Positions 45,860 through 53,621 of a DNA stretch of 64,000 nt are shown here, piece after piece (positions within the stretch are counted from its first letter, which is position 1; each line of letters starts with the position of its first letter). The notes below the pieces were generated by a model, which was not told the DNA's origin, did no database searches, and was given only the letters and a program-made list of their open reading frames with translations. The translations under genes and the position numbers were made by a program. Source of the DNA: Oceanidesulfovibrio marinus (lineage in GTDB: Bacteria; Desulfobacterota; Desulfovibrionia; Desulfovibrionales; Desulfovibrionaceae); contig NZ_CP039543.1 of the NCBI RefSeq assembly GCF_013085545.1, positions 1,798,001-1,862,000 of the forward strand, given 5' to 3'.

Positions 45860-46819
45860 TTATGGCCCGGTTACGAGGATAAACGCCGCCCCCACGATTA
45901 TCAGGCTGATGACGCGCAACAGCTGGTTGTAGACCATCAGACGCAGCGCCAGGCGCGGCTTGAAGATGCCCGCGTAGTACGGGAATTGATGCCGGAAAGC
46001 GCGCATGGGCGAGGAAATGATGTTACCGACCAGCAGGGCGACAACGATCTGATTGACCGTCAACGAGCCGGCCTGCATGAGCGAACCGGCAGCGGCCAGC
46101 CCGGCCGTGAACTCCGCCGCCACATGGAAGACCACGATGGACATGGCAGCCGGCGGCAGGAAAGACAGCCCTTTCACGTACTCGGCCATGAATCCTTCGA
46201 GCATATCGAAGAGGCCGAGGTTTTTGGCGATATACACGGCGATGTAGATGGGTACGGTTATGGTCGCGATCTTCCATATCCGCTTTTTGAAACGCCGCCA
46301 GGCCTTGCGCATCGCGGACTTCCAGCTCCGCGCCCTGTCCTCCTCCAGTCGGCAGATCACGCAGCCCTCCGGCAGCGGCGGCAGCAGAATCCTGCCTAGA
46401 AGGATGGTGGCCGCCGTGCGCACCACGGCCGATGCGACGGTGAGTCCCACATAGATCACGGCGGCGCTGCCGATGAATGGCAGCGTGATGAAGAAGACCG
46501 TGGGCAGATGGAGGAAATACGTAGGCAGGCTGTTGAAAAGATTGGCGAGAACGAGCTCTTTTCTGGTCAGGTTGCCCTGATCGTAGTGCTCGGCCAGCAT
46601 GGAGTTGGCCGCTACGCCGGAAAAGAAGGCCATGGAAAAGCTCGCGCCGGTGATGTCCTTCATGTGGCCCATGCGTATCAGCGGTTGGGCAAGACGGGAC
46701 ATGGCGCGGGTCCAGTTGAGCGCCTCGATGACGTTGGCCACGAACAGGCCCAGGGAAACAAAGGCGAGCAGCCGGACCAGAGGCCAGCCGAGCCCGCTCC
46801 AGAGCGATCCTAAATCCAT
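45860..46819 (-). CDS. Gate (nucleoside-recognition) domain membrane protein
   Basis: 319 residues, several TM helices. Halves with ASFSMAFFSGVAANSMLAEHYDQG, NLFNSLPTYFLHLPTVFFI and the second SIVVFHVAAEFTAGLAAAGSL show the paired 'Gate' repeat of nucleoside-recognition/spore-maturation-like proteins. Their transport substrate is mostly unknown. A charged cytoplasmic loop (about 145-170) contains CVIC, two cysteines that are unusual. It is leftward, 93 bp upstream of rfbC and divergent from the gene at 47014. Confidence 0.82.
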   Translation of the reverse strand: MDLGSLWSGLGWPLVRLLAFVSLGLFVANVIEALNWTRAMSRLAQPLIRMGHMKDITGASFSMAFFSGVAANSMLAEHYDQGNLTRKELVLANLFNSLPTYFLHLPTVFFITLPFIGSAAVIYVGLTVASAVVRTAATILLGRILLPPLPEGCVICRLEEDRARSWKSAMRKAWRRFKKRIWKIATITVPIYIAVYIAKNLGLFDMLEGFMAEYVKGLSFLPPAAMSIVVFHVAAEFTAGLAAAGSLMQAGSLTVNQIVVALLVGNIISSPMRAFRHQFPYYAGIFKPRLALRLMVYNQLLRVISLIIVGAAFILVTGP

Positions 46820-48662: not shown

Positions 48663-49772
48663 TTACTCTTCCCACGATTGCAGCGCAGCGTCCACCATCC
48701 CGGCATCTATTTCCAAAACCCGTGTGCCATTCTCGCCGTCTCGCAGGGCTCCGGAGTCAAAGGGGTCGAACTCCAGGTCCATAATCACCCGGCTGAACAC
48801 CTCGCGCAACGCACGCGCGCCAAGGCGCGTATTGTCGGCTGCCTGGCTCACAACCAGGTCCACGGCCTCGTCCGTTATCCGGAGGTCGATGTCCATAGTC
48901 TTGAAGTACGTCCGCGACTGGTTGAACGGCGAGTCCTTGGAATGGAGCAGGATGCGTTGCAGCGTCTCCCGGCCCAGGTCATCGAGCATGGCGATGGAGC
49001 CAAACCGCGAGAGAAACTGCGGCGCCATCCCATAGTAGAAGAGGTCCGACATCTTGAGATAGTCGCGCAGCGTGAAGAGGATGGTGGACTTCATGCCGCT
49101 CGTTTTGTCGTAGACGCGCACTTCCTTGAGCCGGCGCTCGTCCTCCTTGTTGTCCACACGGGCATAGACCTGATCGTAGAGCTCCTCGAAGGCGCCGCCG
49201 CAGACAAAGAGGATGTTGCGCGTATTGATGGGCAGCTTGGCGTATCGCTCTGCACCCTGTGCGTGCACCCGGGCCCGATAGAGAAAGCGCTCGCCCTCGA
49301 TGAAGGTCAGCAGCGCCTGCTGCAAGCGCATGCCGGTCACGTCCGACTTGCCTGCAATTTTGCCGGATATCTTGTCGATCTCATCCAGACAGACCGTGGC
49401 GTTCTCCATGAGGACCTGCACGTCCCTGGGCGCGCGCTTCTCCCCGAGCATGGCCGCGACGCGGTTCTCCAGGCTCCGGAACACGGCAAACGTGTCCACA
49501 TCGCCGGCCTCGTCCAGAAGGGTCCGTGCGTTCATGATCGTCATGGCGCGGAACTCGGCCAGTGACTCGTGCGCGGCGTAGAACTCCTCGATGGCCTGCA
49601 TGATCGTGGTCTTGCCGGTGCCGCTGTTGCCGATCATCAGGATGCGCGCGCCGCCGATGTGGTTGATGTGCTTGTATATGGCCACGGAGATGGCGCGCAG
49701 GGCCGCCTCCTGCCCGAGAACGCGAGCAGCCAGATGCTCGTAGATGTTGTTCGGCATCAGTGATGCGATCAT
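48663..49772 (-). CDS. ClpX-like AAA+ ATPase without zinc-binding domain
   Basis: 369 residues. The AAA+ core aligns by motif with ClpX: VLGQEAALRAISVAIYKH, Walker A GNSGTGKT (48-55), Walker B VCLDEIDK (127-134), sensor region NILFVCGGAFEELYDQVYAR, then FLSRFGSIAMLDDL and NTRLGARALREVFSRV for sensor 2. The N-terminal zinc-binding domain of ClpX is absent and no IGF ClpP-binding loop was spotted, so it may remodel proteins without ClpP. ATG at 49772 has AGGAGG about 12 bp upstream; a longer frame lacks a ribosome site. It lies behind the S24-repressor gene on the same strand, separated by a terminator. Confidence 0.85.
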   Translation of the reverse strand: MIASLMPNNIYEHLAARVLGQEAALRAISVAIYKHINHIGGARILMIGNSGTGKTTIMQAIEEFYAAHESLAEFRAMTIMNARTLLDEAGDVDTFAVFRSLENRVAAMLGEKRAPRDVQVLMENATVCLDEIDKISGKIAGKSDVTGMRLQQALLTFIEGERFLYRARVHAQGAERYAKLPINTRNILFVCGGAFEELYDQVYARVDNKEDERRLKEVRVYDKTSGMKSTILFTLRDYLKMSDLFYYGMAPQFLSRFGSIAMLDDLGRETLQRILLHSKDSPFNQSRTYFKTMDIDLRITDEAVDLVVSQAADNTRLGARALREVFSRVIMDLEFDPFDSGALRDGENGTRVLEIDAGMVDAALQSWEE

Positions 49773-49865
49773 GGTAGTCACAACCCTCCTGAATGGTTGG
49801 TGTAAACTACCACAGCAAAAAAGAGCAAGTCCGAAAACCAAATGCAGGGAATTGTAAAGACAAAC

Positions 49866-49897
49866 AAAAAAGCCGCGACGCCCGAAGACGCCGCGGC
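49866..49897 (-). terminator. terminator of the S24 repressor gene (UUCG loop)
   Basis: The minus-strand RNA has GCCGCG/CGCGGC arms extended inward, with two wobble pairs, to a UUCG tetraloop, followed by TTTTTTGTTTG. It lies 34-65 bp after the stop at 49931. Confidence 0.75.
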
Positions 49898-49930
49898 CAA
49901 CTCGTACACGCATACGAGTTACAATGCAGC

Positions 49931-50626
49931 CTAGAGATCCTGTATGACCCACACGGCGCGGCCCACGATGCGCTCCTGGGCCTTGTCCACATGAATCTCG
50001 GTCTCGGGGTGCGCCTGGTTCTCGGACCGCAGCACGATGCGCTCGCGGTCGGCGTCCAGGTACACGCGCTTGAGCAGCAGTCCCTCGTAGGGGACGAAGA
50101 CGCCGAAGATCTCGCCGGACACGACGTTCTTCTTGTTCTGGTCGATGCCCACATACGCGCCGCGGCGGATGTAGGGTTCCATGCTGGAGCCCTCCACTTT
50201 GACCACGAGGATGGAGCTGGGGGCCAGGGAGCGGGGCACGTTCAGCTTGCCGATGGCCTTGGGCTCGTAGCCGTCGTGGCCCTCGTTCTCGCTCTGCATG
50301 GAGTGGACATTGACCACGGTGCCTTTGCTTTCGGGCTCGGCGTAGTGGGCGGCCTCCTCGCGCAGGCTCAGCGCAGCCGGACCGTCGTAGGGCTGATAGC
50401 CCTCTTCGCTTTTCAGATACATTGGGCCCTGTCCGAGCTTCAGCCAGTCAGGATTGAGGCCATACTGTTCGAACAGCTTCAGATACCAGTCGGCCGGCAC
50501 CGAGTTGCGGCGCTTGGCGTCCGATATGCTCGACTGACGAATACCGAGAACTTCTGCAAGCTCGACTTGCGTCCGGGTATTTGTCGCCGATTTGATACGT
50601 TCAAATACTTGATCAAAAGAGGACAC
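49931..50626 (-). CDS. CI/LexA-like S24 family repressor
   Basis: 231 residues. The N-terminal HTH of the Bac_CI_repr type (TQVELAEVLGIRQSSISDAKRR) is joined by a linker (about 70-120) to an S24 peptidase-like domain with Ser148 (VEGSSMEP) and Lys186 (LLKRV), the Ser/Lys dyad used for self-cleavage. No typical Ala-Gly cleavage site was seen in the linker, so self-cleavage is uncertain. It should repress its divergent neighbour and itself. ATG follows AGGAG. No phage genes adjoin, so it may be a domesticated or stress-response repressor. Confidence 0.88.
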   Translation of the reverse strand: MSSFDQVFERIKSATNTRTQVELAEVLGIRQSSISDAKRRNSVPADWYLKLFEQYGLNPDWLKLGQGPMYLKSEEGYQPYDGPAALSLREEAAHYAEPESKGTVVNVHSMQSENEGHDGYEPKAIGKLNVPRSLAPSSILVVKVEGSSMEPYIRRGAYVGIDQNKKNVVSGEIFGVFVPYEGLLLKRVYLDADRERIVLRSENQAHPETEIHVDKAQERIVGRAVWVIQDL

Positions 50627-50766
50627 GTGGTAACTCCTATTTGTTTCCTTCGCGAAAAAAGTGAAACAGATTTTTATTTACGGATTAACTCTTGACCAAT
50701 ACATGCACCATCGATATGGTTACATAGAATGCTCATTTCCCTGTAATTAAAAAACCGCATACCGTT
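50627..50766. promoter_or_regulatory. overlapping divergent promoters with a candidate operator
   Basis: 140 bp, AT-rich. The rightward promoter reads TTGACC (50692-50697), 17 bp, TATGGT (50715-50720). The leftward promoter reads TTGGTC (minus strand, 50694-50699) and TAAAAA 17 bp on. The two -35 boxes overlap. A nested palindrome lies near the repressor start: TGTTTC (50642-50647) and GAAACA (50663-50668) around TTCGCGAA (50649-50656). It is the likely operator. Confidence 0.6.
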
Positions 50767-51036
50767 ATGGAAAATCGTTGCCAACTACTTCGGGCGTGGC
50801 TTGCTTTCAATGGCATCTCGAACAAAGAACTCGCTATCCATCTGGGCACGCACACTTCGTTCGTGACCAGGCTCATCAAGGGCGAACGGCGGCCCAAGGA
50901 CAAGATCCAGCGTCTCGTCGAGTACGGTATTCCTGCGAACCTCCTTCCAGCTCCCTCTGAACGGGGCCCTGGACGGCCCCGGAAGACGCAACGCACAAGC
51001 AACGACGATCCGCCCTCCTCGGATAACATTGCGTGA
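50767..51036 (+). CDS. small HTH protein with AT-hook
   Basis: 89 residues. A helix-turn-helix of Xre type lies at about 17-38 (ISNKELAIHLGTHTSFVTRL), followed at 66-73 by RGPGRPRK, which matches the AT-hook core GRPRK and would grip the minor groove of AT-rich DNA. The tail (DDPPSSDNIA) is acidic. It is divergent from the S24 repressor, in the position of a Cro-type antagonist, so the pair looks like a bistable switch; that is inference. No ribosome site stands out before ATG. The nearest downstream gene is converging hflC, 645 bp away. Confidence 0.72.
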   Translation: MENRCQLLRAWLAFNGISNKELAIHLGTHTSFVTRLIKGERRPKDKIQRLVEYGIPANLLPAPSERGPGRPRKTQRTSNDDPPSSDNIA

Positions 51037-51681
51037 GCATGTCATGCTGCCTGTGCTTCTGGATGCTGCGCATCTCCTCAGCAGATGTCGACAGCAGGGT
51101 GGTATGGAACGCGACATACACAAAGCAATATATACAAACTTGATGCCAAACTCCAAATACAGGCAAACCGCTTTTGGATTTGCTACCATCCCAATATGAT
51201 AATGAGCAATTCTCAGATACTCGTGCGCAAGAAAACAGAAAGCAGAACTGACACATTGCGACAGAAATGTAACCCTTCTGTTACAATGTTACATGCCTGA
51301 ACTTGGGTATATTCTGCTCCCCTATACGCTCCAGTACCACCACATACGGCGATCCTACACCCTATTATTGCTTAATCCTTCACTTCGACAAGTGGTTATC
51401 GACTGCAGGAACCGGGCCGAGTGATATCGTCAACCAAAGACGACCTGATGTTTCTGTTCCCATGGGCACATCTATAGGCGACAACAGCGTCTTACCCGCA
51501 ATCCTATTAAAAAAGAGCTGCAAAAACAGCGCAGCATATGGCAAGCGCCTCGCAGGGGCCGGAGCCCAGACTTGCAAAGAGACCGTGCATTGCGAGGAAG
51601 CACAGCCTGCGGATTATGTTCGGGGGATGCGCCGGGTACCGGGAGCGGCTGGTCCTAGCCGCCCCCGGCATGGCGTGATGA
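51037..51681. other. 645-bp gene-free gap with palindromes
   Basis: The largest stretch without a supportable gene. The 51080-51400 part is AT-rich against the high-GC background. A nested repeat TGTAAC (51268-51273), GTTACA (51280-51285) and TGTTACA (51287-51293) lies in it. The right end holds the hairpin behind hflC. Open frames here have no ribosome site or codon bias of this genome. No tRNA or known RNA was recognised; an unknown small RNA is possible. Confidence 0.45.
51639..51668. terminator. hairpin downstream of hflKC
   Basis: 12-bp arms CCGGGAGCGGCT/AGCCGCCCCCGG with one mismatch and a 6-base loop, 14 bp after the hflC stop. There is no T-run, so it is probably a 3' end or Rho-assisted stop. 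Confidence 0.5.
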
Positions 51682-52527
51682 CTACTTGAAGTAGTGCAGG
51701 AACTCGTTTTCAGGCGTGAGCAGCAGGCGCGTATTGTTGCCAAAGCTCTTGCGATACGCCTCCAGGCTGCGCTGGAAAGCGAAGAACTCCGGCCCCTGCT
51801 CCAGGGCGCCTGCGTATATCTTCACCGCCTCGGCCTCGCCTTCGCCGCGGATCTCATCAGCCTGGCGCTTGGCCTCGGCGATGATCACGGAGCGGTCGCG
51901 CTCGGCGCTGGAGCGGATCTTCGCCGCCTCTTCCCGGCCCTCGGAACGATACTGCTTGGCCTGGCGTTCACGCTCGGCGCGCATGCGGTTGAAGATGGCC
52001 TGCTCGTTCTGCGGCGGCAGCTCGGTGCGCTTGATGCGCACATCCAGAAGCTCCACGCCGTACCTCGCCACAAGCTCGGACGCCTCGTCCGTGATCTGCT
52101 CCATGATCGCACCGCGCTCCTTGGCCACGATCTCGGTGAGCGTGTGTCGGCCCAGGGCCTCGCGCAGCTCGGAGTAGACAACGTCCTCCAGCCGGGCCCG
52201 CGCTCCCTGTATGGTCCGCACGGTCCGGTAGAACTGCAGCGGATTGGTGATCCGCCACTTAAAGTAGTTGTCCACAACAAGGTTCTTCTTGTCGCTCGTC
52301 AGCACCTCGGTGGGCTGCATGTCGTAGTCCTGGATGCGCTTGTCGAAGAACTCTACCGTCTGAATAAGCGGCTTCTTGTAATGCAGGCCGGGCTCCAGCG
52401 TGCTGCCCACCGGCTTACCAAGCTGCAGCACAATGGCGTACTGCGTCTGGCGCACCGTGAAGAACACCTGGGACGCGACGAACAACACCACGAACAGCAG
52501 GATGAGAAGGATTCCGGAACGTTTCAT
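51682..52527 (-). CDS. hflC: HflC, SPFH-domain membrane protein
   Basis: 281 residues. An N-terminal TM helix (about 5-24) is followed by an SPFH/band 7 domain and the long C-terminal coiled coil (RAERERQAKQYRSEGREEAA). The HflC protein forms a membrane cage with HflK that surrounds and restrains the FtsH protease. Its ATG overlaps the TAA of hflK by one base (TAATG), so the two are translationally coupled. Second gene of the hflKC operon, closed by a hairpin. Confidence 0.94.
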   Translation of the reverse strand: MKRSGILLILLFVVLFVASQVFFTVRQTQYAIVLQLGKPVGSTLEPGLHYKKPLIQTVEFFDKRIQDYDMQPTEVLTSDKKNLVVDNYFKWRITNPLQFYRTVRTIQGARARLEDVVYSELREALGRHTLTEIVAKERGAIMEQITDEASELVARYGVELLDVRIKRTELPPQNEQAIFNRMRAERERQAKQYRSEGREEAAKIRSSAERDRSVIIAEAKRQADEIRGEGEAEAVKIYAGALEQGPEFFAFQRSLEAYRKSFGNNTRLLLTPENEFLHYFK

Positions 52528-53621
52528 TACTGCTGCCCTCCCTGCATCTGATTCTGCGTGGAAGGCTGGGTCTGCCCCTTGGGGAAACCGCTGTTCCCGG
52601 AGCCGAGCGGCAGAAGCGGCAGTACGCGTTCCATGTTCTCCTTGCTCACGATGATCTTCTCGGTATTCGGATTGGAGTAGATGTTTTCCATGGTCTCCAG
52701 GTACAGGCGCGTACGCGTGACGTCCTCGGCCTTCTTGTACTCGGTGAGGACGGAGAGGAAGCGCTGGGCCTCACCCTTGGACTCGCGAATCTGCGTCTGT
52801 TTGTAGGCGTCCGCCTGGTTCACCATCTCCGCGGCCCGGCCGCGGGCCTTCGGGGTGATGTCATTGCGGTAGGCTTCGGCCTCGTTGATGAACCGCACGC
52901 GGTCCTCACGGGCGCTGGCCACATCCTTGAACGCGTCCACCACTTCGCGCGGCGGCGTCACGTCCTGCAGCTTCACGGCCACCACCTGCAGCCCGGTCTG
53001 GTAGCGGTTCAGAATCTCCTGCAGCAGGTCGCGAGTATCGTTCTGGATCTTGAACTTGCCGTCGGTCAGTGCGGCGTCGATCTTGCTGAAGCCGATGACC
53101 TCGCGCATGGCCGTTTCCGATGCCGACTTCACTGTGGCGTCCGGCCCGGCCACGTTGAACAGATAGTTCTCCGCGTCCTTGATCTTGTACTGGACAACAA
53201 ACTCCACGTTCACGATGTTCTCGTCGCCCGTAAGCATGGAGGACTCGTCCTGTCCGGCCGTGCCGGCACCGGGAACGCCCACCACCACACGGCGAATCTG
53301 CTCCACGTTCGGTGTCATCACGGTCTCGATGGGGAACGGGTAATGCAGATGCGGCCCCTCACCCGTTGTCCTGTTGTACTCGCCGAAACGGAGCACCACG
53401 CCCACCTCGCCGGGCTGGACGATGTAGAAACCGGACACGAGCCATGCCAGCACGACCAGCACGATGATGACCTTGCCGAACGGGAACTTGAAGTTCCTGA
53501 AGTGCTCGAGCTTGTCGGAGATGTCCCACTCCGGACGCGTGGGCTCCGGCCCGCCGCCGCTGCTGCCGCCGCCTGTCTGCCGGCGCTTCTTTTCAGAGAG
53601 CTTGTCCCAATCCCAATTCAT
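52527..53621 (-). CDS. hflK: HflK, SPFH-domain membrane protein
   Basis: 364 residues. A Gly/Pro-rich cytoplasmic N-terminus (about 1-45) and a TM helix (about 52-70) lead to the SPFH domain (about 75-260) and coiled-coil tail, ending in a Gly/Gln-rich stretch. It pairs with HflC to cage FtsH in the inner membrane. ATG follows GAGGAA at about 10 bp. It is divergent from the phosphohexomutase gene, with about 110 bp between for the promoters. Confidence 0.94.
   Translation of the reverse strand: MNWDWDKLSEKKRRQTGGGSSGGGPEPTRPEWDISDKLEHFRNFKFPFGKVIIVLVVLAWLVSGFYIVQPGEVGVVLRFGEYNRTTGEGPHLHYPFPIETVMTPNVEQIRRVVVGVPGAGTAGQDESSMLTGDENIVNVEFVVQYKIKDAENYLFNVAGPDATVKSASETAMREVIGFSKIDAALTDGKFKIQNDTRDLLQEILNRYQTGLQVVAVKLQDVTPPREVVDAFKDVASAREDRVRFINEAEAYRNDITPKARGRAAEMVNQADAYKQTQIRESKGEAQRFLSVLTEYKKAEDVTRTRLYLETMENIYSNPNTEKIIVSKENMERVLPLLPLGSGNSGFPKGQTQPSTQNQMQGGQQ

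Follow-up and report, generated by a model that had tools for sequence, protein, structure and literature searches.

A 64,000-nucleotide stretch of Oceanidesulfovibrio marinus DNA (contig NZ_CP039543.1, positions 1,798,001 to 1,862,000 of the forward strand; hereafter the window, and its genome G000) carries at 48663-51036 the genes for a ClpX-derived AAA+ protein, an S24 regulator and, divergent from the latter, a small helix-turn-helix (HTH) protein. ClpXL is our own label for the AAA+ protein. Our data indicate that this segment probably consists of two independent chromosomal modules found in sulfate-reducing bacteria, the S24 regulator and ClpXL, which adjoin merely in one small lineage. 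The first-pass annotation of this DNA had taken the three genes together as a domesticated immunity-type switch with its own unfoldase. With two modules, a speculative three-part system becomes two testable ones. The open reading frames (ORFs) of all three genes were confirmed, and the features concerned are the following.

48663-49772, minus strand: ClpXL, a ClpX-derived AAA+ protein of 369 amino acids (aa) (ORF reading, Pfam and NCBIfam, alignment, structure model).
49871-49898, minus strand: intrinsic terminator after the S24 gene, with a 12-bp GC-rich stem, a UUCG loop and a U-run (terminator scan, folding).
49931-50626, minus strand: CI-type HTH and S24 regulator of 231 aa with a GTG start (ORF, Pfam, alignments).
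50627-50766, no strand: divergent intergenic region, holding a 9-nt inverted repeat at 50639-50647/50663-50671 (repeat scan).
50692-50720, plus strand: sigma-70-like promoter candidate of the HTH/AT-hook gene, TTGACC-17-TATGGT, weak alone (promoter scan).
50767-51036, plus strand: HTH/AT-hook protein of 89 aa (ORF, hidden Markov model homologues).

The linkage between the modules was counted from both sides. S24 and HTH genes were found near ClpXL at three of 29 loci, namely the window, L039 of G015 and L040 of G001, a genome of the same genus. The 29 loci are the window, 26 other loci of the family Desulfovibrionaceae and one each from G061 and G248, and the stretches examined were 4.4-15.5 kb long. 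Conversely, ClpXL was present in 3 of 54 S24 stretches. In G014 (S24 protein 62% identical to that of the window), a Gate gene comes directly after the S24 gene (match ends 217 bp apart), and ClpXL lies on a different contig. A strong hairpin parts the S24 and ClpXL genes in all three genomes with the trio, with z-scores of -5.1 (window), -2.7 (G001) and -4.9 (G015); the 51-nt terminator stretch of the window folds at -25.7 kcal/mol, and the G001 hairpin has a U-rich tail. This terminator had been overlooked in the first-pass annotation, as had hflC and hflK beyond the HTH gene. It could be argued that the trio is a functional unit in the lineage that comprises G000, G001 and G015, with ClpXL setting the switch, without self-cleavage, by remodelling or eviction of the S24 regulator (or of the HTH/AT-hook protein). 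Such a unit has to be reconciled with 26 ClpXL loci that have no S24 or HTH gene in the stretch examined, 51 S24 loci that have no ClpXL, the separate contigs of G014 and a hairpin in every trio genome. It draws on a gene arrangement, strands included, that is identical in three genomes of two genera, on the clustering of G000 and G015 ClpXL in the tree and on the window S24 protein, which has no cleavage dipeptide and so would need another off-switch; on balance it is quite unlikely. The trio as one unit is disfavoured by the linkage counts and the hairpin, and the idea that the regulator has its own unfoldase is not supported, the AAA+ protein being a separate family. The trio does recur in other genomes (G001 and G015), and the AAA+ gene is usually, not always, unlinked.

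That the AAA+ protein is related to ClpX and lacks its zinc domain, as proposed earlier, was borne out by NCBIfam and alignment. The ATG at 49772 was chosen over an upstream GTG at 49952 because the GTG reading would extend through the terminator into the end of the repressor gene. Pfam gives AAA_2 (39.5 bits) and ClpB_D2-small (23.2 bits), both exceeding the cut-off. The nearest NCBIfam family is ClpX, and with 130.1 bits the protein misses the clpX equivalog cut-off of 370.75 bits; against PRK05342 it scores 157.1 bits, below the cut-off of 359. A structure model was obtained with a pLDDT (predicted local distance difference test) of 94.8, and the 50 best of its listed PDB matches are all ClpX or ClpXP entries. 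The genome of the window also encodes a canonical ClpX (locus L004), and a further AAA_2 match in it is taken to be HslU.

Motifs were counted in 22 ClpXL rows, nine from the ten genomes with an orthologue and 13 from the 14 loci L048-L061, against nine ClpX controls (that of G000 and eight chosen from L062-L127). G001 (two-frame gene), L050 (same sequence as that of G027) and the later loci L267-L285 were left out, and the proteins at loci such as L041, L043, L049, L053 and L060 were read from the ORF list or the match frame. Walker A, Walker B and the sensor-2 GAR are kept in 22/22 ClpXL rows. The N-terminal zinc motif was found in none of these rows and in six of the nine controls, the other three having clipped or odd starts. 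The aromatic GYVG pore-1 loop and the RKH loop were likewise absent from all 22 rows, and both were present in 9/9 controls. In nine ClpXL rows aligned with the ClpX of the same genome, the IGF/LGF ClpP-docking loop was not at the aligned place. The label ClpX alone would mislead in genomes carrying ClpXL. By lacking the ClpX-specific loops, this ClpX paralogue illustrates a way in which an unfoldase core may be put to new use. In G001 (L040, 7117-8245), ClpXL lies in two overlapping frames, either a real frameshift or an assembly error.

ClpXL is a separate ClpX-derived family, mostly sited away from the S24 regulator. It was found in 27 of 288 Desulfovibrionaceae genomes and in 8 of 44 genera (E<=1e-75). 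An orthologue of at least 340 bits was present in 10 of 99 genomes (G000 and relatives), that of G001 being split in two frames. All ten have a second match at ClpX level (73-87 bits), and the other matches in the 99 genomes are at ClpX level (at most 96 bits) or weaker and partial. A thin draw across the phylum gave ClpXL in 5 of 395 genomes, one of them outside the family (G248); G061 is also from another family. Beyond Desulfovibrionaceae it was found in at least seven Acidobacteriota metagenome-assembled genomes (MAGs), at least one genome assigned to Myxococcota, at least one of Pseudomonadota and at least one unassigned MAG. In a 36-row tree, which excludes the control rows canon_L030, L033 and L035, ClpXL and ClpX are split with 100/100 support, and the ClpXL of G000 and G015 cluster at 95/88. 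Some contigs stand under two labels each (L048 = G588, L049 = G690, L051 = G692). A phage or plasmid origin of ClpXL was considered and rejected: among the matches listed (viral, the 80 best of 228; phage, 20 records of 64; plasmid, 20 records of 68), identity reaches just 26-32%, the level of canonical ClpX. No conserved ClpXL neighbours were found beyond close relatives among the loci compared. In genus g10, ClpXL begins 2 nt past a gene for a 159-aa protein that is Lrp/AhbA-like by eye (L269, 7254-7733 and 6148-7251; L276, 5593-7178; L048, 5516-7101). These two genes are a possible operon and a possible lead to the role of ClpXL.

The S24 protein has an S24 domain (PF00717, 50 bits; cut-off 23.3) and a CI-type HTH domain (PF07022, 48 bits; cut-off 22), in agreement with its earlier description as a repressor of that kind. 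At E<=1e-40 it was found in 50 of 59 genomes sampled from Desulfovibrionaceae and in none of 40 genomes from other families of the same order. This search gave 62 matches, of which the best per fetched stretch, 54 in all, are counted here; eight further copies in G023, G025, G031, G037 and G057 are uncounted, and the G022 row among the 54 is truncated. A search of 288 genomes at the stricter 1e-85 found it in 23, a figure that is uninformative on family-wide presence. In the presumed recognition helix, IRQSSISDAKRR, 11 of 12 positions are identical in 52-54 of the 54 rows, and the first position in 45. The catalytic positions drift across the same rows, with Ser in 16, Lys in 28 and both in 9. 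The cleavage site of LexA and CI proteins is expected 25-45 residues before the Ser. An AG or CG dipeptide was present in this segment in 18 of the 54 rows, and there is none in the window protein. Ser, Lys and the dipeptide occur together in one row, that of G023. Because these features are lost in most rows, self-cleavage is unlikely as the general trigger. The regulator looks like a phage-type switch that is losing its trigger and keeping its DNA target, as the helix is near-invariant and the autoprotease is decaying.

The same counts bear on another explanation, in which the locus has an ordinary autocleaving repressor of the SOS type, like FddR of Francisella. The S24 fold, the Ser and Lys of the window protein, the complete set in G023 and the divergent gene, as described at FddR loci (PMC13148647), are all consistent with it. 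Yet Ser and Lys together are kept in merely 9/54 rows and all three features in 1/54, the window segment has no AG or CG, and two other proteins, the repressor of Desulfovibrio phage ProddE and a different S24 protein of the window's own genome (L290), keep all three by reading. This explanation is thus unlikely. Two more CI/S24-like proteins of the same genome (L288 and L289; G000:C1:1565910 and 4088044) have S24 domains that look degenerate, which suggests further regulators of such kind. At L214, L215 and L217 (G031, G025 and G057), two to three S24 paralogues are clustered.

The surroundings of the regulator are those of a chromosomal locus, and three neighbours are of importance here.

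45860-46819, minus strand: Gate/nucleoside-recognition protein (Pfam scan, synteny).
51682-52527, minus strand: hflC-like gene (SPFH/Band 7), a conserved neighbour of the S24 gene (Pfam scan, synteny).
52527-53621, minus strand: hflK-like gene (SPFH/Band 7), named from its place before hflC (Pfam scan).

In 33 of 50 genomes the S24 stretch was observed to contain hflC, each time on the strand of the S24 gene; these include G017, where the hflC match is weak (21% identity), and G024, where hflC is 4 kb off. Membrane-protease genes are thus frequent companions of the regulator. The match ends of hflC and S24 are 30-68 bp apart in six genomes, which looks like an operon. A Gate homologue was present in 23 of the 54 S24 stretches; 21 of these have it downstream and on the strand of the S24 gene. 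At least one of hflC, PGM/PMM or the Gate gene occurs in 38 of the 54; the remaining 16 comprise second copies, loci at other places and short contigs. Eight proteins neighbouring the trio were scanned with Pfam (a sugar epimerase, the Gate protein, one unassigned protein, a TPR protein, two Band 7 proteins, PGM/PMM and an aminotransferase), and there was no phage gene among these eight, in line with the earlier statement on phage genes. If the S24/HTH pair were a recently stranded prophage immunity region, a CI/Cro remnant with no host role, one could understand why its domains and PHROG matches are of the phage-repressor type and why its best-ranked phage relative among the records listed is a Desulfovibrio phage repressor with 29.8% identity. 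A stranded remnant would hardly be present in 50/59 genomes of a family, next to the same genes at 38/54 loci and with a near-invariant recognition helix. In addition, the eight neighbours hold no phage genes, the HTH protein had no match in the phage set even at E<=1, and no close viral contig was found with a single-sequence query, which finds close relatives only. This makes the remnant very unlikely. The first-pass claim of a CI/S24 regulator outside a prophage holds, and the regulator is more widespread than was claimed. The immunity-type switch stays unproven: most members have a degenerate S24 protease, and no palindromic operator common to the intergenics compared could be recognised.

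The divergent 89-aa protein has no Pfam family above cut-off, and its HTH matches are sub-cut-off. A homologue divergent from the S24 gene was detected by hidden Markov model at 13 of the 54 S24 loci, window included, in ORFs up to 1.5 kb upstream. All 13 end in a PGRP-type tail, which we take to be an AT-hook; the HTH/AT-hook description of the protein was upheld in this respect, though not by the HTH matches. As it occurs at 13/54 loci, the partner is not general. Homologues were also found elsewhere as tandem copies, with three-copy arrays at G031:C8:145559-146417 (within L218) and at G027:C139:2081-3014 (L220); two of the G027 copies contain a stop codon.

An operator at 50642-50668 and overlapping promoters had been proposed for the divergent intergenic region, and neither was substantiated. 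Of 400 Markov shuffles of this intergenic, 142 contained an equal of the inverted repeat at 50639-50671, and the repeat was not found in the same-genus G001, whose repressor is 95% identical. The promoter scan gave the weak plus-strand candidate and no promoter-like site on the minus strand of the intergenic; over a 3.4-kb region, three sites were found and 2.0 expected, no excess over shuffles. By eye, TTGACA/TATA-like signals recur at a similar position in several relatives. A palindromic expectation-maximisation motif search over 12 intergenics (without that of G001, a near-duplicate) gave a likelihood above that of eight mononucleotide shuffles at every width. As a shared operator this motif was rejected, being by eye mostly the -35/-10 of the HTH gene, and no shared palindromic operator was recognised across the 12. 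A repeat of the TGTAACA/TGTTACA type was seen by eye between the HTH gene and the end of hflC (window 51268-51293; L039 9713-9741).

Several observations weigh against the reading of two independent modules and the roles proposed for them. The trio persists in three genomes that have diverged considerably (G015: S24 protein 65%, ClpXL 55-58% identity), so it is no accident of one strain, and several neighbourhoods are cut by contig ends. The G015 hairpin has no U tract and the terminator pattern scan called neither it nor that of G001; readthrough is therefore possible. No ClpXL promoter was found by the promoter scan in the window, G001 or G015 regions. The pore loop of ClpXL lies at about residues 86-94 in the structure model, and a Phe is near it in 6 of the 22 rows (L053-L057 and L060), in addition to F95 of the window protein, so that substrate threading by ClpXL is possible. 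The IGF regular expression is weak, matching 5/9 ClpX controls and 1/22 ClpXL rows (the C-terminal part of L046); because it finds only five of the nine controls, it is the alignment that indicates the absence of the ClpP loop. On the regulator side, the window protein retains S148 and K186, the G023 protein keeps Ser, Lys and Ala-Gly, and 17 of the 50 genomes have no hflC in the S24 stretch.

In the two-module reading, the first module is a transcription regulator derived from CI/S24 that much of Desulfovibrionaceae has retained at its hflC locus; some lineages add a divergent HTH/AT-hook partner. The regulator is probably dimeric when it binds DNA, which it would do via the near-unchanging recognition helix. 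In most lineages self-cleavage can presumably no longer switch it, and the signal is therefore likely to be a protein contact, a ligand or the protein level. The second module, ClpXL, is probably transcribed from its own promoter. Because the zinc domain, GYVG, RKH and, by alignment, the ClpP-docking loop are lost, ClpXL most likely works independently of ClpP, as an ATP-driven factor for remodelling or disassembly that has a client of its own. It would be neither a protease feeder nor an antirepressor of the S24 regulator. A bolder view joins two claims: that ClpXL is a family of ClpP-independent remodellers, stripped of the substrate- and ClpP-handling elements, in Desulfovibrionaceae and Acidobacteriota, and that the S24 pseudo-protease regulator couples HflKC-FtsH membrane quality control to transcription. 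That both are true is a tentative suggestion, and rather doubtful. If it were so, a regulator tied to hflC/hflK, with an AT-hook partner in some lineages, would link membrane protein quality control with transcription.

ClpXL shares with ClpX the AAA+ core, Walker A and B, the sensor-2 GAR and the ClpX fold (PDB matches at 23-29% identity). It differs in having no zinc domain, GYVG or RKH, in the IGF missing at the aligned place and in occurring in addition to canonical ClpX. The phage family phrog_4339, of unknown function, matches ClpXL at E 4.9e-40 in two stretches, the best being 105-338; unlike ClpXL, it is a profile of 552 positions. A literature search over titles and abstract openings, with most subscription journals outside its reach, returned nothing on ClpXL, the S24 regulator or the AT-hook partner; one paper, PMC8586430, has a single mention of HflC.

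The regulator has the CI HTH and S24 architecture of phage CI repressors such as those of Desulfovibrio phage ProddE and phi80, and phage CI repressors are 25-30% identical to the window protein (12 of 25 records listed). The ProddE repressor differs in keeping Ala-Gly, Ser and Lys by eye, and it sits in a phage beside an integrase. IrvR of Streptococcus mutans, a LexA-like regulator on the chromosome, is a precedent for departure from the RecA paradigm, and its autocleavage has been studied (PMC7101444); in the S24 family the autocleavage features are largely lost. FddR of Francisella, according to PMC13148647, is a co-opted S24 phage repressor that is chromosomal and lineage-wide, has a divergent neighbour gene, is autoregulated at a GTG-N11-CAC palindrome and is tied to DNA damage. 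The window regulator is likewise a chromosomal, lineage-wide S24 regulator of phage-repressor descent with a divergent neighbour. In contrast to FddR, its family is mostly without the catalytic dyad and cleavage site, shows no shared palindrome that was recognised and is placed at an hflC/hflK locus. FddR is the closest precedent that the literature search found for a co-opted S24 repressor with a divergent neighbour.

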